A program made the position numbers and the translations under genes. Positions 1,869-9,905 of a stretch of DNA of 9,905 nucleotides are shown here, in pieces. The notes beneath the pieces were generated by a model. It was not told the origin of the DNA. It did no database searches and saw only the letters and a program-made list of their open reading frames with translations. Location: NCBI GenBank assembly GCA_017652965.1, contig JAGBZZ010000185.1:1-9905 (forward strand), given 5' to 3'. Position 1 is the stretch's first letter. Every line of letters begins with the position of its first letter. This stretch comes from Clostridia bacterium. Lineage in GTDB: Bacteria; Bacillota_A; Clostridia; Oscillospirales; CAG-272.

Positions 1869-1882
1869 GCCCTGCAAAAGGG

Positions 1883-1914
1883 GGGCATATGCACTGTGCA
1901 TATGCCCTCTTTTT
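1883..1914 (+). terminator. Intrinsic terminator of the Lrp-aminotransferase operon
   Basis: An 11-bp perfect stem (1883-1893 with 1897-1907, GGGCATATGCA) closed by a three-base loop is followed by TCTTTTTGTTT. It lies 15 bases after the aminotransferase stop codon. This is a strong rho-independent terminator. Confidence 0.9.
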
Positions 1915-1930
1915 GTTTCTCTTTTGCGGT

Positions 1931-1975: not shown

Positions 1976-2004
1976 TTGGTACGCAACCTTTGCTATACTA
2001 TAAT
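1976..2004 (+). promoter_or_regulatory. Probable sigma-A promoter of the helicase-MoxR-VWA operon
   Basis: A perfect -10 box TATAAT (1999-2004) lies exactly 17 bases after TTGGTA (1976-1981), which matches the -35 consensus at four of six positions. A second -10-like hexamer, TATACT, overlaps at 1994-1999. The predicted transcript start near 2011 gives a leader of about 28 bases before the ATG at 2039. The position after the preceding terminator supports independent transcription of the three-gene operon. Confidence 0.7.
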
Positions 2005-2038: not shown

Positions 2039-5000
2039 ATGGAAAAGAAGAATATGACCCCGATAGACGAAAGTGCATCCCCACAGGAGCTTTTGGATGC
2101 CATCAACAGCAAAAGCGGAACCCTCTCCCCTGCCGAGGTGGCACAGCTTATCCGCCGTTTGGTTACCCTGCGCCAGGAGAACCGTGCCAAGGAAAAGGAG
2201 GCCGCGCGTACGCGCACGCGCGAATCGAAAAAAGAAGAGACCGCCCGTGCGCGGGAGGAGAAAAAGGCCGCCGCCGCCAAGGAGCGTGCCGCCCATGCGG
2301 CGCACGTGGCCGAGGTCACCGCGATGGAGCTACCCCTGGATTGGGAAAACGCCTTTTGCGATGACCCGCGCGCCGAGGGCACGTATACCGAAAGCATCCC
2401 GGACGGCCTTGTACGCTCGCTTACCACGCTTGGACGGGTGGATATCGAATACATCGCCAAGATCACCGACACCTCCTGCAAGGAGGTCATCCTCGGCCTG
2501 CGCGGTGCGATCTTTCAGAACCCCGAGACCTGGGGCGAATGCTTTTACCGCGGCTGGGAAACGGCCGAGGAATATCTTTCGGGCAATCTGATACGGAAAT
2601 GGCAGGTCGCCAAGGCCGCCAACAAAAGCTATAGCGGCTACTTCCGTGAAAACATCAAGGCGCTGGAGGCCGCCCTGCCCCCTGCAGTCCCTACCGACAA
2701 GATCTACGTGACGCTTGGCTCGCCCTGGGTTCCCACCGAGGTGATCGACGAGTTTATCAACCATATCCTTCAGATCCGCTATCGTCCCTACCACGGCACC
2801 CGCCACGATGAGGAGACGGGCACCTGGGAGATCCCGGATAAGGAAGCGCTTTACTCACGCAACACCGTGGCGGCGGGGACGACCTACGGTACACGGCGCA
2901 TCCATGCCCTTTCACTACTCGAGAAGACACTGAATATGCGCACCGTCACGGTGACGGACGAGGAGATCCTCCCGGGGCCGAAAAGGAAGGTGCGCCACGT
3001 CCTCAACCAGGAGGAAACGGTGCTGGCACTGGAAAAGCAGACTATGCTGATCGAGGAGTTCCGCAGATGGGTCTTTGCTGATGAAGAGCGGCGGGAGGCG
3101 CTGAGCGTGCTATACGGCAACAAATACGGTTGTGTGCGGCGGCGCATCTTTGACGGCTCGTTTCTCACCTTCCCTACGATGTCGGATGCTATCTCGCTGT
3201 ATCCCTATCAGAAAAACGCGGTGGCGCGCATCCTGTTTTCCCCCAATACGCTTTTAGCGCACGACGTTGGCTCGGGCAAGACCTATATCATGATCGCCGC
3301 GGGGATGGAGCTGCGCCGCATGGGGCTTTCCCAAAAGAACCTGTACGTCCTGCCCAACAACCTGGTCTCGCAGTGGGAGAGCATCTTCCGTACGATGTAC
3401 CCGCACGCCAGGATCCTTTCGGTCACCCCCTCCCGCTTTACCCCCTCTCGCCGTCTTGCCATGCTGGAGCGCATCCGGGATGAGGATCACGACGCGATCC
3501 TGATGGCCTATAGCTGCTTTGAGCGCATCTCGGTCTCCTGCCGCTATCACGAGGAGGAGCTTAACGAGCTTTGGGAAAAGCTTGAGAAGATCGCGGCCGA
3601 TCCGCAAAAGGCCACAAGCTACGTCAACCGCAAGAAGAGCGCCGTGAAAAAGGAGCTGGCCAAGGCGGCCGCCGCAATCGAAGCACCCGAGGACATCCCC
3701 TTTGATCAGCTGGGGATCACGCGCCTCTTTGTAGACGAGGCGCACAACTACAAAAACGTCCCGATCGAGACCAAAAGCGATAAGGTAAACGGGATCTCGT
3801 CGGGCGGGTCGCAAAAGTGCCGCGATATGCTGGACAAGGTGCGCATCGTGCAAAAGAAAAACGGGGGCGGGGGTGTGGTAATGGCCACAGGCACGCCCAT
3901 CACGAACTCGATCACCGATGCCTTTGTCATGCAACAGTATCTCCAAAGCGGCGAGCTGACCCTTCTGGATCTGCAGACCTTTGACAGCTGGATCGGCATG
4001 TTTGCCGAGCGCGTGACCGAGTTTGAGATCGACGTGGACACCAGCGGATACCGTCTTGTCACCCGTTTTTCCCGCTTCCATAACCTGCCCGAGCTGACCG
4101 CCATCTTTTCCTCGGTGGCCGATTTTCACCAGGTGGGGCCGGGGGCGGGACTGCCCGCGTTTGACGGGTATCACGATGCCCTGCTCCCACGCTCGGCCGA
4201 GCTGCGGGATTTTCTGAAGGATATCTCCGACCGCGCCGACAACGTGCGCCGGGGCCGCATCCCGATGCGGGAGGACAATATGCTGAAGATCACCACCGAC
4301 GGGCGCAAGGCGGCACTGGATCTGCGGCTTGTGGAGCGCGAGACCTTCTCGCATCCCGGCACCAAGGTAGCCGAATGCGCCGAAAACGTGATGACGATCT
4401 ACCGTGCCACCGCCGCCACCCGCGCGACCCAGCTTGTCTTTTGCGATATCTCTACCCCGAAAAGCAGCTTTAATATGTATGACGAGCTGCGCCGCCTTCT
4501 CATCGAGGGGGGGATCCCCGGCGAGGAGATCGCCTTTATCCACGATGCCACCGGCGAGCGGCGCCGCACCCTGCTTTTTTCCAAGGTATGCGCGGGAGAG
4601 GTGCGCGTTCTTATCGGCTCCACCTTCAAGCTGGGGATGGGCGTTAACGTACAGGAGAGGCTGATTGCCATCCATCACCTGGATGTGCCGTGGCGGCCCG
4701 CGGATATGACCCAGCGCGAGGGGCGCATCCTGCGCCAGGGCAACACCAACGAGCGGGTGTTTATTTACCGCTATATCACCGAGGGGAGCTTTGATGCCTA
4801 CTCCTGGCAGATCCTTGAAACCAAGCAGCGCTTTATCACCGGGCTTCTTTCCGGGGCGATCACCGAGCGCTCGGGCAGTGACGTGGACGGCCGCGCCCTG
4901 AACTATGCCGAGGTCAAGGCCCTGGCGATCGGCAATCCGCTGATCAAGGAGCGGGTAGAGGTAGCCAATGAGCTGGCGCGGTGCTTTACCCTGCAAAGCC

Positions 5001-5647
5001 GCGCCGTGGAGGAGCATATCCGCATGGAGCGCGAGCTTTCCGAGCTGCCCGCAAGGATCAGCCATCAAAACGACCTGATCAAGCGTTGCCGCGGCGACTG
5101 TGAATTTTTAAAGGAGGAGCAAAAGTCGGCATTGCCGCCCCTTCCCAAGTCCCCTTCCCTGCCCTCGGCCGGTGAGGGGGGCGGGAGCCCCTTCACCGAG
5201 GAGGCGGTGGCCGCCCTATCCGCTGAGGAGGAGGCATGGAGACGTGGCCGCGAGGAGCGCCGGCTTTTGCGCGAGCGGCTCTCTCTTGCCCTGCGCGAGA
5301 ACGTCCTCTCCACAACCGAGACCTATTTCGGAGAATACCGCGGCTTTGGTATCTACCTCCCCGCCAATATGGATACGGTGCATCCCTTTGTGCGGCTGGC
5401 GCGCGACGGGCATTACGCCGTGGACGTTGGTATCACCGAGGGCGGGTGCCTTATCCGCATTGACAGCTTTCTGGACGCCCTGCCCGAGCATCTTGCCAAG
5501 CTGCGCGAAAATTTGCGCCGCATGAAGGCGCGGCGGGACGGGCTGACGGTAGAATTAAAAAAGACAACCGGCTATGCCGAGCGCATCGAGGCGCTAACGG
5601 TGCGCCTTGCCGAGATCGATAAAAAGTTAGGAGTAACGGCCTCATGA
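2039..5647 (+). CDS. DarB-like SNF2-type DNA helicase, stand-alone (no methyltransferase domain)
   Basis: A 1202-residue superfamily 2 helicase, probably an ATP-driven DNA translocase. Order: a charged Lys/Glu/Ala coiled coil (about 45-95); a conserved pre-helicase region (about 125-380) with EEYLSGN (177-183) and LGSPWVPTEVIDEF (226-239); helicase core 1 with YPYQKNAV (388-395), Walker A GSGKT (411-415), DEAH box (566-569) and ATGTP (616-620); helicase core 2 with GVNVQ (868-872) and motif VI QREGRILRQG (892-901); then NYAEVKALAIGNPLIK (955-970), a helical region and a small C-terminal domain starting EYRGFGIYL (1099-1107). These segments resemble the C-terminal half of giant methyltransferase-helicase proteins on phages and clostridial conjugative elements (P1 DarB type). 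No NPPY/NPPF methyltransferase motif is present. Residues about 1029-1055 form a Pro/Gly/Ser linker. The stop overlaps the next start (ATGA). The family call is from remembered motif similarity, not a search. Confidence 0.88.
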   Translation: MEKKNMTPIDESASPQELLDAINSKSGTLSPAEVAQLIRRLVTLRQENRAKEKEAARTRTRESKKEETARAREEKKAAAAKERAAHAAHVAEVTAMELPLDWENAFCDDPRAEGTYTESIPDGLVRSLTTLGRVDIEYIAKITDTSCKEVILGLRGAIFQNPETWGECFYRGWETAEEYLSGNLIRKWQVAKAANKSYSGYFRENIKALEAALPPAVPTDKIYVTLGSPWVPTEVIDEFINHILQIRYRPYHGTRHDEETGTWEIPDKEALYSRNTVAAGTTYGTRRIHALSLLEKTLNMRTVTVTDEEILPGPKRKVRHVLNQEETVLALEKQTMLIEEFRRWVFADEERREALSVLYGNKYGCVRRRIFDGSFLTFPTMSDAISLYPYQKNAVARILFSPNTLLAHDVGSGKTYIMIAAGMELRRMGLSQKNLYVLPNNLVSQWESIFRTMYPHARILSVTPSRFTPSRRLAMLERIRDEDHDAILMAYSCFERISVSCRYHEEELNELWEKLEKIAADPQKATSYVNRKKSAVKKELAKAAAAIEAPEDIPFDQLGITRLFVDEAHNYKNVPIETKSDKVNGISSGGSQKCRDMLDKVRIVQKKNGGGGVVMATGTPITNSITDAFVMQQYLQSGELTLLDLQTFDSWIGMFAERVTEFEIDVDTSGYRLVTRFSRFHNLPELTAIFSSVADFHQVGPGAGLPAFDGYHDALLPRSAELRDFLKDISDRADNVRRGRIPMREDNMLKITTDGRKAALDLRLVERETFSHPGTKVAECAENVMTIYRATAATRATQLVFCDISTPKSSFNMYDELRRLLIEGGIPGEEIAFIHDATGERRRTLLFSKVCAGEVRVLIGSTFKLGMGVNVQERLIAIHHLDVPWRPADMTQREGRILRQGNTNERVFIYRYITEGSFDAYSWQILETKQRFITGLLSGAITERSGSDVDGRALNYAEVKALAIGNPLIKERVEVANELARCFTLQSRAVEEHIRMERELSELPARISHQNDLIKRCRGDCEFLKEEQKSALPPLPKSPSLPSAGEGGGSPFTEEAVAALSAEEEAWRRGREERRLLRERLSLALRENVLSTTETYFGEYRGFGIYLPANMDTVHPFVRLARDGHYAVDVGITEGGCLIRIDSFLDALPEHLAKLRENLRRMKARRDGLTVELKKTTGYAERIEALTVRLAEIDKKLGVTAS
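5162..5193 (+). repeat. GC-rich inverted repeat encoding a linker inside the helicase gene
   Basis: GGTGAGGGG at 5171-5179 can pair with CCCCTTCACC (about 5188-5197, one bulged A), and CCCTC at 5162-5166 can alternatively pair with GAGGG at 5174-5178. The DNA encodes part of the low-complexity Pro/Ser/Gly stretch at residues about 1029-1055, between two better conserved segments. It may be a small palindromic element captured in frame, or simply a low-complexity linker. Confidence 0.4.
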
Positions 5648-6759
5648 GCGACATCAAGCTTCAGAACATCCCCACCATGAGCGTCGGAGGGGCGGTGACC
5701 GCCCTTTCCGAGCTCTACACCTCCGCCATACGGGCGGGGCTTCCCCTGCGCACGCTACCCTCTGTGATGCTTTGGGGGCCGCCCGGTGTCGGTAAATCCC
5801 AGGCTATCCGCCAGATGGCGGATGCCATCACGGCAGGAACGGGCAAGCGCACCGTAGTAACCGATGTGCGGCTTTTGCTCTTTAACCCGATCGACCTGCG
5901 CGGCATCCCGACGGCGAATGCCGACAAGACGCTGGCCGTCTGGCTGAAGCCGAAGATCTTTCAGATGGACGAGGGGCGGGATCTTGTAAACATCCTCTTT
6001 TTGGACGAGATCTCGGCCGCGCCGCAATCGGTACAGGCGGCCGCCTACCAGATCACGCTGGATCGCGTGGTGGGCGAGCATCGCCTGCCCGAAAACTGCA
6101 TTGTTGTGGCGGCGGGAAACCGTACCACCGACAAATCGGTAGCCTTTAAGATGCCCAAGGCACTGGCCAACCGCTTGATGCACCTGGAGATCGAGGGGAG
6201 CTTCAGCTCCTGGCGAAGCTGGGCGGTCAGCCATGGGATCCATCGGATGGTGCTGGGCTTTCTCTCCTTCCGCCAAAGCTATCTGATGGACTTTGATTCC
6301 GGCAATGAGGATCTGGCCTTCCCGACGCCGCGTTCCTGGGAGATGGTCAGTAATCTTTTGCATGCCGCGGGAGAGGATACCGAAAAGCTGTATCCCCTGA
6401 TCGCGGGGCTGGTGGGAAGCGGGGCGGCCATCGAGTTCCGCACCTGGGCGCGTATTTATGCCGACCTGCCGCGCATTGAGGATATCTTTGACGGAAAAAT
6501 GCCGCCTCTGCCCGGCAATAGCGACGCCATGTATGCCCTGGCCGCCTCCATCACTGCCTATGCGCGCGAGCATCGGCACGAGACGGCGCGGCTGACGAGT
6601 TCCATCCGCTATATCGATAGGATGCCCCCCGACTTCTCTGCCCTTGTCATGCGGGACTATATGTGCTTTGAGCCGGACTTCAAGCACAAGCTGATGGCGA
6701 TCCCCGAATTTTCTCGCTGGCTGCAAACGAAAGGAAAGCTGTTGAATGGCGCTCAATAA
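5644..6759 (+). CDS. MoxR-like AAA+ ATPase
   Basis: A 371-residue AAA+ protein of the MoxR/AAA_5 type, which usually forms hexameric rings and remodels partners recruited through a VWA protein. Seen in order: Walker A GPPGVGKS (45-52), Walker B LFLDE (118-122), a sensor 1 asparagine Asn159 in AAGNR, and a candidate arginine finger Arg177 in KALANRLMH. The segment PIDLRGIP (82-89) fits the MoxR insertion near the substrate pore. The C-terminal 180 residues are mostly helical (lid and partner-binding region). AGGAG at 5629-5633 lies ten bases before the start, and the ATGA overlap with the helicase stop indicates coupled translation. The VWA gene starts inside its last 14 bases. MoxR ATPases pair genetically with VWA proteins (RavA-ViaA, NorQ-NorD, CoxD-CoxE), matching this layout. 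The substrate is unknown; the helicase next door is the obvious candidate partner, by inference. Confidence 0.92.
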   Translation: MSDIKLQNIPTMSVGGAVTALSELYTSAIRAGLPLRTLPSVMLWGPPGVGKSQAIRQMADAITAGTGKRTVVTDVRLLLFNPIDLRGIPTANADKTLAVWLKPKIFQMDEGRDLVNILFLDEISAAPQSVQAAAYQITLDRVVGEHRLPENCIVVAAGNRTTDKSVAFKMPKALANRLMHLEIEGSFSSWRSWAVSHGIHRMVLGFLSFRQSYLMDFDSGNEDLAFPTPRSWEMVSNLLHAAGEDTEKLYPLIAGLVGSGAAIEFRTWARIYADLPRIEDIFDGKMPPLPGNSDAMYALAASITAYAREHRHETARLTSSIRYIDRMPPDFSALVMRDYMCFEPDFKHKLMAIPEFSRWLQTKGKLLNGAQ

Positions 6760-8020
6760 CGAGACCCTGCGGGAATGTACACGCCGCCTGTTACTTTCGC
6801 GCATGCGGCTTTTATGCCACCACGGCTTTTACGGCCTTTTGCTGTTGCATATGCGTTACGCGGTGGACGAGGCGGTAGAAACGGCCTGCACCGACGGTGT
6901 GCGCATCACCTTTGGTGTGGACTTTTTGGAGAGCCTTACGGATGAGGAGCTGGACTTTGTGATGATGCACGAGGTGCTTCACGTGGTGCTGCAGCATTGC
7001 CTGCGGCAGGGCGAGCGCGATCGCGAGCTTTTCAATATTGCCTGCGACACGGTCGTTAACTCCAATATTCTTTTGGAAAACCGAATGAACGAAAAAAGCA
7101 TCTCGCTTGCCGAGTACGGCGTTTCTATGCATCTTGCCCCGAACGGCGAGGAAGGGCATCTCTACACCGCCGAGGAGGTCTACGAGATGCTGAAGGATCC
7201 GCAAGAAAGCAAAAAGGCCGCCAAGGGCGGCGGCAAGGGTGAGGGGAGATCCCCCTCGCGCGGGCGGGGCGGCAGGAATGGCAGTGCCGCCGGCACGGCA
7301 GGGGACGCCTGGGACGACCACACCCGTTGGGGCGGCGCCGAAGAGAGCGGCGAGGAGCTTTCCGACCTTTGGGCCAAGCATTTCCGGGATGCCTGCAGTG
7401 CCATGGAGGTGCGCGATCCCTCTAACTCCCGCGGGTTGATCCCCGCCTTTGCCAAGCGGATACTGGGTGAAGTGCGCCGCGCCGAGACCGATTGGCGCAC
7501 GGTCCTAAACGAATTTGTCCAGGAGGAGGTCGCCGATTATTCCTTCTCCCCGCCCGACCGCCGCTTTGGCGATACCCCGTTTTTCCTGCCCGACTTCAAC
7601 GGCACGGTTGAGGTGGTGCGGGATATCCTTTTCATGATAGACACCTCCGGCTCCATGAGCGATGCCATGATCACCGCGGCTTATTCCGAGGTCAAGGGGG
7701 CTATCGACCAGTTTGACGGCAAGCTGTGCGGCTGGCTTGGATTTTTTGATGCCGCCGTGATCGAGCCCTGCCGCTTTGAGGATGCCGAGGAAATGCAGAT
7801 CGTGCGGCCGGTGGGAGGCGGCGGGACGGATTTTGACGTCATTTTTCGCTATATAAATACCTACATGAGCGAAACGCCTCCTGCCAGCATCATTATTCTG
7901 ACAGATGGCTACGCCCCCTTCCCCCCTGAGAAAAGCGCGAACGGCATTCCCGTACTGTGGCTTCTCACCGATAGCGAGGTGGAGCCGCCTTGGGGGCGAG
8001 TGACGAGGATCAAGGTATAG
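6746..8020 (+). CDS. VWA-domain protein with N-terminal HExxH metallopeptidase-like domain (DUF2201 type)
   Basis: A 424-residue cytoplasmic protein with two modules. Residues about 1-155 match the putative metallopeptidase domain of DUF2201 proteins: MHEVLHVVLQH carries His75-Glu76-x-x-His79, the zincin motif, with Asp101 in ACDTVVN a possible third ligand. A Gly/Ser/Arg-rich linker spans about 155-205. A helical segment (205-270) leads to a VWA domain (about 292-420) with a complete metal-ion-dependent adhesion site: DTSGS (299-303), Thr361 in GGTDF and Asp387 in LTDGY. No signal peptide or membrane segment is seen. The start ATG at 6746 has AAGGA at 6731-6735 and overlaps the MoxR gene by 14 bases. 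In MoxR-VWA pairs the VWA protein is the adaptor, so this protein probably links the ATPase to a target and might cleave it. Whether the HExxH site is active is not shown by sequence. Confidence 0.92.
   Translation: MALNNETLRECTRRLLLSRMRLLCHHGFYGLLLLHMRYAVDEAVETACTDGVRITFGVDFLESLTDEELDFVMMHEVLHVVLQHCLRQGERDRELFNIACDTVVNSNILLENRMNEKSISLAEYGVSMHLAPNGEEGHLYTAEEVYEMLKDPQESKKAAKGGGKGEGRSPSRGRGGRNGSAAGTAGDAWDDHTRWGGAEESGEELSDLWAKHFRDACSAMEVRDPSNSRGLIPAFAKRILGEVRRAETDWRTVLNEFVQEEVADYSFSPPDRRFGDTPFFLPDFNGTVEVVRDILFMIDTSGSMSDAMITAAYSEVKGAIDQFDGKLCGWLGFFDAAVIEPCRFEDAEEMQIVRPVGGGGTDFDVIFRYINTYMSETPPASIIILTDGYAPFPPEKSANGIPVLWLLTDSEVEPPWGRVTRIKV
7217..7257 (+). repeat. Two small GC-rich hairpins in the VWA-protein linker
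   Basis: GCCGCC (7217-7222) pairs with GGCGGC (7226-7231), and GAGGGG (7241-7246) pairs with CCCCTC (7252-7257). They encode the Gly/Ser/Arg-rich linker between the metallopeptidase-like and VWA domains. The string GGTGAGGGG also occurs in the helicase linker at 5171. This may reflect low complexity rather than a mobile element. Confidence 0.4.
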
Positions 8021-8029
8021 ACAAGAAAA

Positions 8030-8063
8030 AAGAACCGGAGAGCAAAAGCTCTCCGGTTCTTTT
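8030..8063. terminator. Bidirectional intrinsic terminator between convergent operons
   Basis: A 14-bp perfect stem (8030-8043 with 8048-8061, AAGAACCGGAGAGC) has the loop AAAA. On the plus strand it ends in TTCTTTTATT. On the minus strand it ends in TTCTTTTTTCTTG. It lies ten bases after the VWA-gene stop and eleven before the end of the convergent lipoprotein gene, so it can stop transcription from both sides. Confidence 0.93.
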
Positions 8064-8073
8064 ATTGATAAAA

Positions 8074-9378
8074 TCAGGCGATCGGCGACCAGCTGGCATC
8101 CTCGGTCAGGCAAACATACCAGGTGATCTCGACCTTAAAGTCGGCATCCACGACCTGGCAATTGGTGGTGGAGGCAAAGGAGGCAACCGTCTTATAGGTG
8201 CCAAGCGCGGTCACAGCACCGTCCACAGGGGTGGTGGCGCCGTCGGTGGCAACCTTCACGGTGGTGTAGGTCACGGTAACACCCTCGGTAAGGGCGGCGA
8301 TGCTGGCATCATCCAGCACCATCTGAAGGGCGATGGTGGCATCGGCGGCAACGCGGATGGCGTTAAGCTCAGCATCATAGCCGGCCATCGAGGTATAGCC
8401 CCAGTTCAGGGTAAGCTCGCCAACGGTAACCTTGATCGGCTCGATCACAAGGGAGGCCGTCTTGGTGGCATCGGCAGTAGCGATCTCGTAGTTCGCATCG
8501 GTGGAGGTGAAGGTAGCGGTCACGGTGTAGGTGCCGGAATCCTTAGCCTCGGCTACGGTAGAACCGCCCAGCGCGTAGGCATAAGCAACCTGAACGTTGG
8601 CAGGGATACCGGTGGCGGCCAGGGTGTAAGCGGTGCCGTTGTAGGGTTTGGTGTCGCCGGCAAACTGAACAGCGGACATATCGATGGTCGCCTTGTTGAT
8701 CGTCAGCGTAGCCGTCTTGGTAGCGTCGGCAGCAGCGATCTCATAGTTCGCATCGGTGGAGGTGAAGGTAGCAGTCACGGTGTAGACACCGGCATTGATA
8801 GCCTCAGCCACGGTAGAACCGCCCAGCGTGTAGGCATAAGCAACCTGAACGTTGGCAGGGATACCGGCGGCGGCCAGGGTGAAGGCAGAACCGGTATAGG
8901 TCTTGGTGTCGCCGGCCAGCTGAACGGCAGACATGTCAACAGTCGCCTTCGCGATGGTGACGGTGGCCGTCATGGGGGCAACAGGGGAATAAGTAGCGGG
9001 AAGCGTGATGGTGGCCACGACGGTATAGGTACCGGCGTTGGTCAGAGAAACCGCCTCAACAGCCACACCGTCCACAGTATAGGAAACGGTAGCGCCCTCG
9101 GGCAGGTTGGTAACAGCGGCCGTGAAGGCAGAGCCGTTGTAGACACCACTGACGTTCTCAAAGACGGGCTCGGCAACCAGAAGGGGCGCCTCGGTCGTCG
9201 TAGGAGCGGTCGTGGTCGGGGCGGCCGTGGTGGTATCCGCAGCCGTCGTCGTTACGTCGCCGGCGGCCGTAGTGGTAGCGGCAGGCGTCGTACCGGAAAC
9301 ACCGGTCGTGCAGGATGCGAGGGTGATGCAAAGAAGCGCCGTCAGAAGAACGGCAAAGAGGAACAGCTTATTTTTCAT
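8074..9378 (-). CDS. Secreted lipoprotein with MBG/Ig-like repeats
   Basis: A 434-residue protein. Residues 1-22 form a lipoprotein signal peptide (MKNK, then a hydrophobic core) ending at the lipobox LASC, so Cys23 would be lipidated and the protein anchored outside the membrane. Residues about 24-65 are a Thr/Ala-rich spacer. Three beta-sandwich units follow, resembling MBG/bacterial Ig-like domains: about 66-143, 144-228 and 229-313, each with Y-(N/T)-G-(S/T)-A and G-(T/V)-YTV motifs. The second and third are near-identical 85-residue copies. Residues 314-434 form another beta-rich segment that was not recognised, ending WYVCLTEDASWSPIA. The start at 9378 is chosen because AAGGAG lies seven bases upstream and the signal peptide begins there; a longer frame extends to 9513 but would start upstream of the promoter. 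A surface adhesion or scaffold role is plausible but unproven. It is transcribed convergently to the helicase operon from its own promoter. Confidence 0.85.
   Translation of the reverse strand: MKNKLFLFAVLLTALLCITLASCTTGVSGTTPAATTTAAGDVTTTAADTTTAAPTTTAPTTTEAPLLVAEPVFENVSGVYNGSAFTAAVTNLPEGATVSYTVDGVAVEAVSLTNAGTYTVVATITLPATYSPVAPMTATVTIAKATVDMSAVQLAGDTKTYTGSAFTLAAAGIPANVQVAYAYTLGGSTVAEAINAGVYTVTATFTSTDANYEIAAADATKTATLTINKATIDMSAVQFAGDTKPYNGTAYTLAATGIPANVQVAYAYALGGSTVAEAKDSGTYTVTATFTSTDANYEIATADATKTASLVIEPIKVTVGELTLNWGYTSMAGYDAELNAIRVAADATIALQMVLDDASIAALTEGVTVTYTTVKVATDGATTPVDGAVTALGTYKTVASFASTTNCQVVDADFKVEITWYVCLTEDASWSPIA
8440..8949 (-). repeat. Tandem duplication of a 255-bp MBG-like unit
   Basis: The unit at 8695-8949 (residues 144-228) and the unit at 8440-8694 (residues 229-313) are in register with a period of 255 bp. 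Long blocks are identical or differ by single bases, for example around 8584-8612 against 8839-8867 and 8492-8530 against 8747-8785. The low divergence suggests recent duplication or ongoing gene conversion. Confidence 0.9.
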
Positions 9379-9424
9379 ACAATCTCTCCTTGAATAATAT
9401 AGAAGATAATATTCTCTACATATC

Positions 9425-9662: not shown

Positions 9663-9680
9663 GAACTGCAATAGCAGTTC
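9663..9680 (-). other. Hairpin at the 23S 3' boundary
   Basis: GAACTGC (9663-9669) pairs with GCAGTTC (9674-9680) with a four-base loop, straddling the predicted mature 3' end of the 23S rRNA. It could compete with, or follow, pairing of the 23S ends during processing. Confidence 0.5.
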
Positions 9681-9905
9681 AAGCGATCGGTCTATTAGTA
9701 TCGTTCAGCTGAACACGTTACCGTGCTTACACCTACGACCTATCAACTTGTAGTCTACAAGTGACCTCACGGGCCGAAGCCCATGGATATCTAATCTTGA
9801 GGTGTGCTTCACGCTTAGATGCCTTCAGCGTTTATCACATCCGCACGCGGCTATCCAGCTATGCCCTTGGCAGAACAACTGGTGCACCGGAGGTGCGTTC
9901 GACCC
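9677..9905 (-). rRNA. rrl: 23S ribosomal RNA, 3' end (partial)
   Basis: The minus strand carries the last part of domain VI of 23S rRNA. Recognisable conserved blocks are TGCCAAGGGCATAGCTGG, GCTGAAGGCATCTAAGCGTG, AAGCACACCTCAAGAT, GTTGATAGGTC and GATACTAATAGACCGATCG, ending in CTTGAACT. The rest of the gene, including the sarcin-ricin loop, lies beyond the right edge. The exact mature 3' end (9675-9680) is estimated by comparison with known ends. No 5S gene follows within the trailer. Confidence 0.97.

Follow-up and report, generated by a model that had tools for sequence, protein, structure and literature searches.

Why would a large helicase of the DarB-like type be made together with a MoxR-type AAA+ ATPase and a protein that joins an HExxH domain to a VWA domain? 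The question is raised by a stretch of 9,905 nucleotides from a Clostridia bacterium (contig JAGBZZ010000185.1; the whole stretch is called here the window), in which a preliminary description made from the letters alone had pointed out these three genes (called here the trio; Table 1). The answer developed below draws on the gene order, the overlaps, the intact catalytic motifs, the correlated divergence of the three genes, the single clade formed by their helicases in the sampled tree and the enrichment of WYL and AAA+ neighbours, all of which are observed. The recurrence of the trio in many related species, often near defence-type regulators, hints at a machine not yet described, which would strip proteins from foreign or damaged DNA or destroy them there. 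Our preference, a tentative one, is for a new class of MoxR-vWA ternary machine with a captured translocase, most likely used against mobile DNA.

Gene order and recurrence of the trio

The three open reading frames (ORFs) are intact in the window; the helicase and MoxR genes overlap by 4 bases (ATGA) and the MoxR and VWA genes by 14, with a promoter-like site ahead of them and a terminator behind, so that the operon proposed in the preliminary description is borne out in all these respects. The families named there (DarB-like helicase, MoxR ATPase, HExxH-VWA protein) agree with the Pfam and PHROG assignments. It should be noted that matches to promoter and hairpin consensus sequences also arise by chance. 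The downstream hairpin is strong; it was scored on the minus strand and is, by eye, also T-rich on the plus strand. No stop codon interrupts the helicase frame as far back as position 1889, but the extra stretch falls within the upstream hairpin; a GAGGAGG sits ahead of the ATG at 2039.

To follow the trio beyond the window, GTDB genome contigs were scanned with an alignment of the VWA protein; 100 relatives were confirmed and the best 80 were kept as loci. Their hosts are nearly all Clostridia-type Bacillota, many from animal gut samples, and the bacterium of the window is probably gut-derived as well. A MoxR match was present in 77 of the 80 loci and adjoined the VWA gene in all 77, which is no independent test because the loci were found through the VWA gene. 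The helicase, by contrast, lay outside the query, and it stands beside MoxR in 71 of the 71 loci with at least 600 bp of contig upstream of MoxR (6 of the 77 MoxR loci had less than 600 bp and are thus outside this count). The claimed coupling of the three genes therefore holds throughout the testable loci, none of which carries the MoxR-VWA pair without the helicase at the same place. More distant pairs without the trio helicase exist in the locus L145, in plasmids and in phages. The three loci dropped for want of a MoxR match were L070, L079 and L081, and in L070 and L081 the match begins near a contig end. In L079 (338-2959), a truncated N-terminal part of the helicase is fused straight into the C-terminal part of the VWA protein, MoxR being missing, which reflects either a deletion or an assembly fault.

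Gap and tree statistics were taken from 60 complete trios, 20 of the 80 loci being too incomplete, with spacings extrapolated from tblastn ends. The helicase-MoxR spacing was -4 in 31 of the 60 and the MoxR-VWA spacing -14 in 38, and an in-frame stop was seen in a single trio, within the helicase. When the window was added to these 60, pairwise tree distances correlated at 0.80 (helicase-MoxR), 0.83 (helicase-VWA) and 0.73 (MoxR-VWA), the permutation maxima being 0.317-0.328. This correlation shows shared descent of the three genes, not contact between their products. The recurrence of the trio also extends beyond close relatives, as had been called for: the divergent trio L151 (genome G204) keeps the same order and overlapping genes at 35% (helicase), 44% (MoxR) and 39% (VWA) identity, and the trio L050 comes from Anaerotardibacter muris, an actinomycetotal species. 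An adjacency of three unrelated genes by chance, in favour of which nothing was left after this survey, is ruled out by the 71 of 71 loci, by the conserved overlaps and by the order kept in L151, and its probability is practically nil.

Catalytic motifs of the MoxR and VWA proteins

The MoxR protein carries the Pfam domains AAA_3/AAA_5 and matches phrog_1297 with 311 bits; its Walker A and B residues do not vary across an alignment of 13 sequences, that of the window among them. The third protein matches DUF2201_N (123.8 bits) and the DUF2201 VWA-like domain (52.2 bits) in Pfam, and phrog_1314 with 263 bits. DUF2201_N is N-terminal and constant, and the VWA domain closes the protein. Both the HExxH motif (H75-E76-x-x-H79) and the MIDAS residues D299, S301, S303, T361 and D387 are invariant in 25 aligned sequences including that of the window, and the HExxH domain is a putative metallopeptidase, as Pfam names it. 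The structure model of this protein has a mean pLDDT of 73.4. In a fold search its VWA part resembled many VWA domains. The Midasin MIDAS domain led the list (E 2.2e-5), and the 37 matches at E<=0.001 include one chain of the NorQD complex; since the alignment covers a single domain, the overall TM-scores stay low. PHROG 1314 calls this family 'HNH endonuclease' and phage records repeat the name, to which the Pfam domains of the window protein give no support.

Identity and origin of the helicase

Pfam recognises SNF2-rel/ResIII/Helicase_C domains in the helicase, and the PHROG 'DarB-like antirestriction' family (phrog_10089) matches it with 782 bits; the N-terminal ~90 residues are, by eye, low-complexity and charged. 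The structure model is moderate (mean pLDDT 65.4), and the fold search placed SNF2 remodellers at the top (SMARCAD1, E 2.7e-15), with RapA and ZorD also among the matches. In an alignment of 23 sequences, no variation is seen in Walker A, in DExH or in several residues of motif VI. A nuclease or methylase hidden in the 1202 residues was sought by Pfam, NCBIfam and fold search and none was found, a negative that is weak because the helicase model is only moderate.

The wider lineage was examined in genome samples centred on Ruminococcus bromii (G001, counted in) that comprised 196 genomes of the class, 245 of the order and 398 of the phylum. Helicases of this lineage were matched at E<=1e-40 in 43 of the 196 Clostridia genomes; for 30 of these 43, an open frame of at least 2000 residues holds the best match. 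A tree of 78 sequences was then built (25 trio, 20 other Clostridial and 33 viral-contig helicases; FastTree, midpoint root, 888 columns), which took 25 of 65 trio helicases and left out L155, whose helicase lies in two frames. The trio helicases and a single other member, L178, form one clade (support 0.89), whose sister group takes in the 19 remaining Clostridial helicases together with a single one from a viral contig (support of the joint group 1.0). This arrangement fits a capture of the trio helicase from the methylase-helicase proteins of conjugative elements, with the methylase missing. No MoxR or VWA match was found beside the DarB-like helicases of 34 viral contigs (L088-L121; up to 10 kb per side).

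A DarB-like origin raises the alternative that the trio is a remnant or cargo of a mobile element that aids DNA entry by anti-restriction rather than defending the host. The lineage is indeed common to large conjugative-element-type proteins, and DarB protects incoming DNA (PMC5512222; this and the other sources cited are used as far as the excerpts available of them go). However, the trio helicase has no methylase, the flanks are of housekeeping type both in the window and in L050, and most of the neighbour families to which Pfam gave a name are something other than conjugation genes (PcfJ-like proteins make up 2 of 98), so that we consider this alternative very unlikely.

The helicase of L178 is fused to an sce7726 domain, which by eye reads as a nuclease from its motif, and no MoxR or VWA match was found near it. 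It branches between the divergent trio L151 and the remaining trio helicases, and its ancestor may therefore have had the MoxR-VWA pair and then lost it. With the sce7726-fused helicase as query, no relative was found among viral contigs. L178 also bears on the alternative that the MoxR-VWA-peptidase pair serves as a maturation chaperone, by which a client (perhaps the helicase) is assembled or activated. This is how RavA-ViaA and Cox-type pairs work (PMC7159879), and the plasmid and phage pairs that occur without the trio helicase would agree with it; against it stand the constancy of the helicase as partner in the 71 loci and its presence in L178 without the pair, and we regard a chaperone role as distinctly unlikely.

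Distribution and probable transfer of the trio

In the class sample, the VWA family was matched in 5 of 196 genomes at E<=1e-15 and the trio was present in 2 of 196; in the order sample, it was matched in 12 of 245 at E<=1e-12, with the trio in 6 of 245 (G001, G229, G397, G309, G240 and G204). Among the latter, the G229 helicase is matched in two frames, G397 is the genome of L058, and the G309 VWA gene is split over two contigs; of the order-sample genomes without the trio, G331 has a VWA piece only and five others have distant pairs or weak matches. The phylum sample gave 6 of 398 genomes at E<=1e-25, namely G001 and five in which the stretch examined gave no match to the helicase. The distribution of the trio is patchy. 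In L145 (1395-3850, minus strand, genome G133), a MoxR of 54% identity is paired with a VWA protein of 29% identity, with no helicase match, and this locus is a possible link between the trio and plain MoxR-VWA pairs.

In the A. muris locus L050, the trio has a GC content of about 0.47-0.52 and lies between genes of higher GC (0.55-0.56 on the downstream side); its flanking genes (Ppx/GppA, GlmU, Prs, Pth) are housekeeping-like by eye. A trio of lower GC in an actinomycetotal genome points to movement between phyla.

Some trios were found on IMG/VR contigs. A viral origin of these contigs was considered and rejected, since they carry serine recombinases (L083 and L084; also L001, L002 and L087), with a Mob_Pre relaxase in L083, and have the look of mobilisable elements rather than of phages. 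In L083 (6107-8793), a mobilisable element with serine recombinase, Mob_Pre relaxase and, by eye, ParB-like genes is apparently inserted in the trio helicase gene itself, at the conserved stretch coding for QREGRILRQGN. The contig of L084 begins inside the helicase, and its trio is followed downstream by two genes for serine recombinases and by one that is FtsK-like by eye (8663-13752).

The distribution also bears on the main rival to a role against mobile DNA. Spartan-type proteases cut proteins stuck on DNA, and the trio might likewise clear chromosomal roadblocks or repair DNA-protein crosslinks, with no role in immunity: the translocase would meet a stuck protein, the pair would extract it and the HExxH domain would cut it. 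An SNF2-type fold, an AAA+ ring and an intact HExxH motif within one operon are compatible with this proposal, as is the position of the window trio among housekeeping-type genes. By contrast, the presence of the trio in so few genomes of the order and class samples (G001 being in both) weighs against a core repair function, which is expected to be broader, and the lower-GC trio in an actinomycetotal species and the WYL, GmrSD and MntA/HepT-type neighbours described below argue in the same direction. We therefore judge it rather unlikely.

Neighbouring genes

Clustering of the 738 neighbour ORFs of the 80 loci revealed recurrent WYL regulators, AAA proteins of ~675 residues most similar to SpoVK/CbbX, FtsH-like AAA-M41 proteins and BspA-type LRR proteins, among others; the SpoVK and FtsH matches fall below the NCBIfam cut-offs. 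Enrichment was measured for three of these families over the complete genomes behind 50 of the loci, a total of 114.3 Mb, of which the trio flanks make up 611 kb, or 0.53%. The flanks held 24 of 117 WYL domains against 0.63 expected (38x), spread over 22 of the 50 loci, 13 of 22 SpoVK-like matches against 0.12 expected (110x; one straddles a flank end and one is a fragment) and 9 of 14 FtsH-like matches against 0.07 expected (120x). Two of the 117 WYL matches, one of them in a flank (L077), are below the Pfam cut-off. Matches were assigned to flanks by hand, and those whose coordinates fitted but whose contig differed were counted outside. When the helicases were clustered at 80% identity, WYL neighbours were found in 20 of 56 clusters, SpoVK-like in 10 and FtsH-like in 7; at 70% identity, the figures were 14 of 42, 6 and 7.

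For WYL regulators belonging to the BrxR family, co-localisation with phage defence systems has been reported (PMC9122601). Of 25 hand-picked WYL-type ORFs, 20 lie on the trio strand, 8 of these within 450 bp of the trio. In L032 (489-5326), WYL, sce7726-like, macro-domain, MntA/HepT-like and metallophosphatase genes precede the trio on the same strand (WYL named by Pfam, sce7726 by similarity to L178 and the others by eye). A second recurrent set near the trio consists of a SpoVK-like AAA protein, a ~283-residue protein without Pfam match, an LRR protein and an FtsH-like AAA-M41 protein (L008:13034-18875; L082:14413-18737; L005:13454-18031), some loci having only part of it.

PADLOC models were run on 98 of 201 selected neighbour proteins and on 100 of 167 control ORFs from other contigs of the genomes in the set, and the figures refer to the matches listed, 25 of 84 and 25 of 50 matched families respectively. 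Among the matches listed, the neighbours gave WYL 5 times, HEC-06 and IetA twice each and a retron-type reverse transcriptase once; the control ORFs happened to include a Cas locus. Pfam on the same 98 neighbours, run without a Pfam control, gave AAA 6, WYL 5, GmrSD_N 4, LRR_5 4, Metallophos 4 and RtcB 2. The trio itself gave no match specific to a component of a known anti-phage system in PADLOC or NCBIfam: in PADLOC the helicase had generic matches only (best DrmD, 47.3 bits), MoxR weak ones and the VWA protein none, and in NCBIfam the three top matches scored 50, 45 and 31 bits where the cut-offs are 1100, 610 and 500.

Proposed function of the trio

We infer the following working scheme for the ternary machine. 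The SNF2 translocase would be its third, target-finding component and would track along double-stranded DNA. A bound or stalled protein would be docked by the VWA protein in the manner of Midasin, by way of the MIDAS site; remodelling or unfolding by the MoxR ring would follow, and the HExxH domain would then cut the docked protein. The preliminary description had likewise suggested that the VWA protein may bring the AAA+ ring to the helicase or to a target bound by it, and may cleave it. The likely use would be to clear away or destroy the proteins that sit on phage or conjugative DNA entering the cell, and in many hosts this would be under WYL-type control. A more specific version, which we consider possible but doubtful, is a proteolytic immune system in which the domesticated translocase patrols incoming DNA and passes bound proteins, such as injected phage proteins, relaxases or replication proteins, to the AAA+, VWA and metallopeptidase parts for destruction, with sce7726 as the effector in L178; an anti-restriction motor of mobile elements would then have been turned against them.

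Several observations weigh against a machine directed at mobile DNA. The preliminary description had proposed, as unproven, a role in defence or in the control of mobile elements, and this stands in part: the WYL, SpoVK-like and FtsH-like neighbours and the sce7726 fusion speak for it, whereas the PADLOC comparison of the 98 neighbours with the 100 control ORFs gave no clear general excess of defence genes. In the window the trio is flanked by genes of housekeeping type and by an rRNA gene rather than by a defence island; no nuclease was found in the trio; and L178, with a helicase and no MoxR-VWA pair, implies that the pair may be dispensable for the helicase. Moreover, the topologies of the three gene trees agree less than their distances (17, 17 and 15 of 58 splits common to the gene pairs), and kinship in the neighbour enrichment was handled by the helicase clustering only.

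Were the preferred reading true, a helicase of conjugative-element type would have been captured into a stable chromosomal machine. MoxR-VWA-metallopeptidase pairs are also common in phages, where their role is only proposed. The trio would then offer a unit of three genes with three separate activities, each open to inactivation by a single point mutation, and would make the role of such a pair directly testable with a defined partner.

Surroundings of the trio in the window

On the 5' side, the trio is preceded by genes for an Lrp/AsnC regulator and an aminotransferase, and on the 3' side it is followed by an MBG-repeat protein gene and a 23S rRNA gene (Table 1); these surroundings look chromosomal. 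The GC content is even (0.59-0.60) across the trio and flanking genes, and there is therefore no sign of recent import into this genome. The MBG-repeat gene has a sigma-70-type promoter match (12/12) of its own at 9453-9425.

Table 1. Features of the window and of locus L178 (coordinates without prefix are those of the window)
Feature	Position	Strand	Details
Upstream terminator hairpin	1874-1916		5' of promoter-like site
Promoter-like site TTGGTA-17-TATAAT	1976-2004	+	consensus scan, 10/12 matches; candidate only
SNF2-type translocase gene	2039-5647	+	1202 aa; ORF list, Pfam, PHROG
MoxR-type AAA+ ATPase gene	5644-6759	+	371 aa; ORF list, Pfam, PHROG
DUF2201 protein gene (HExxH domain + VWA)	6746-8020	+	424 aa; ORF list, Pfam, PHROG
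Hairpin terminator	8028-8063		between VWA gene and convergent MBG-repeat gene; 16-pair stem, 8 G-C pairs
Lipoprotein-like protein (by eye) gene	8074-9393	-	three MBG repeats; convergent to trio
23S rRNA gene, 3' end	9674-9905	-	Rfam LSU_rRNA_bacteria
Helicase fused to sce7726 domain	L178:6116-9700	-	sce7726 144 bits, cut-off 70
SpoVK-like AAA gene	L178:11051-13027	-	two ORFs upstream of helicase

Comparison with known systems

The combination had been presented as one not known to be a described system, and no account of the trio was recognised in the literature searched on MoxR-VWA, DUF2201, DarB and sce7726, of which excerpts were available and which left subscription journals mostly outside. 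DarB-type proteins are methylase-SNF2 helicase dyads of phages and conjugative elements (PMC5512222). Among the matches listed (40 of 107 phage records), the homology of the trio helicase to them spans 61-90% of its length, with identities of 31-41%; unlike the helicase of the dyad, it has no N-terminal adenine methyltransferase, is chromosomal, is tied to a MoxR-VWA pair and falls in a separate clade.

Jumbo phages encode MoxR and a metallopeptidase-vWA protein with a proposed role in virion assembly (PMC7824862). The trio shares both families with this pair and with the phages of phrog_1297 and phrog_1314, the metallopeptidase being N-terminal of the vWA domain in each. However, in phages G and phiFa the MoxR and vWA genes lie apart, their 7 kb flanks gave no match to the trio helicase, and the window trio lies by Lrp/aminotransferase genes and 23S rRNA, not in a phage genome. 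Plasmids of Thermus, Sphaerotilus, Synechocystis, Azospirillum and Streptomyces carry adjacent MoxR and VWA matches as the trio does, beside WYL, Sir2 and DUF262 genes in Sphaerotilus and near a DUF262 gene in Synechocystis; unlike in the trio, no match to its helicase was found in any of the five plasmid stretches.

The closest described relatives in architecture are the MoxR-vWA ternary conflict systems, which consist of MoxR, vWA and a third component, named as VMAP, iSTAND, FtsH, beta-propeller, iSTAND2 or TERNS3 (PMC7159879, PMC8195603); vWA-MoxR-VMAP systems are also found beside CRISPR loci (PMC10910872). As in these systems, the AAA+ MoxR of the trio adjoins a MIDAS-bearing vWA protein with a constant third gene on the 5' side, and they too bear peptidase domains on the vWA protein. 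Unlike in these systems, the third component is an SNF2 translocase and none of those named, SNF2 helicases appearing in the available excerpts of the same accounts only as rare effector-type domains (PMC7159879, PMC8195603). The bpMoxR family (PF20030) matches with 13.5 bits against a cut-off of 27. The putative peptidase of the trio is N-terminal and constant, whereas theirs is a variable C-terminal effector, and the hosts of the trio are mostly Clostridia, whereas theirs are multicellular bacteria. If our reading is correct, the MoxR-vWA ternary systems would gain through the trio a class built on a DNA translocase, and this in Clostridia rather than in multicellular bacteria.

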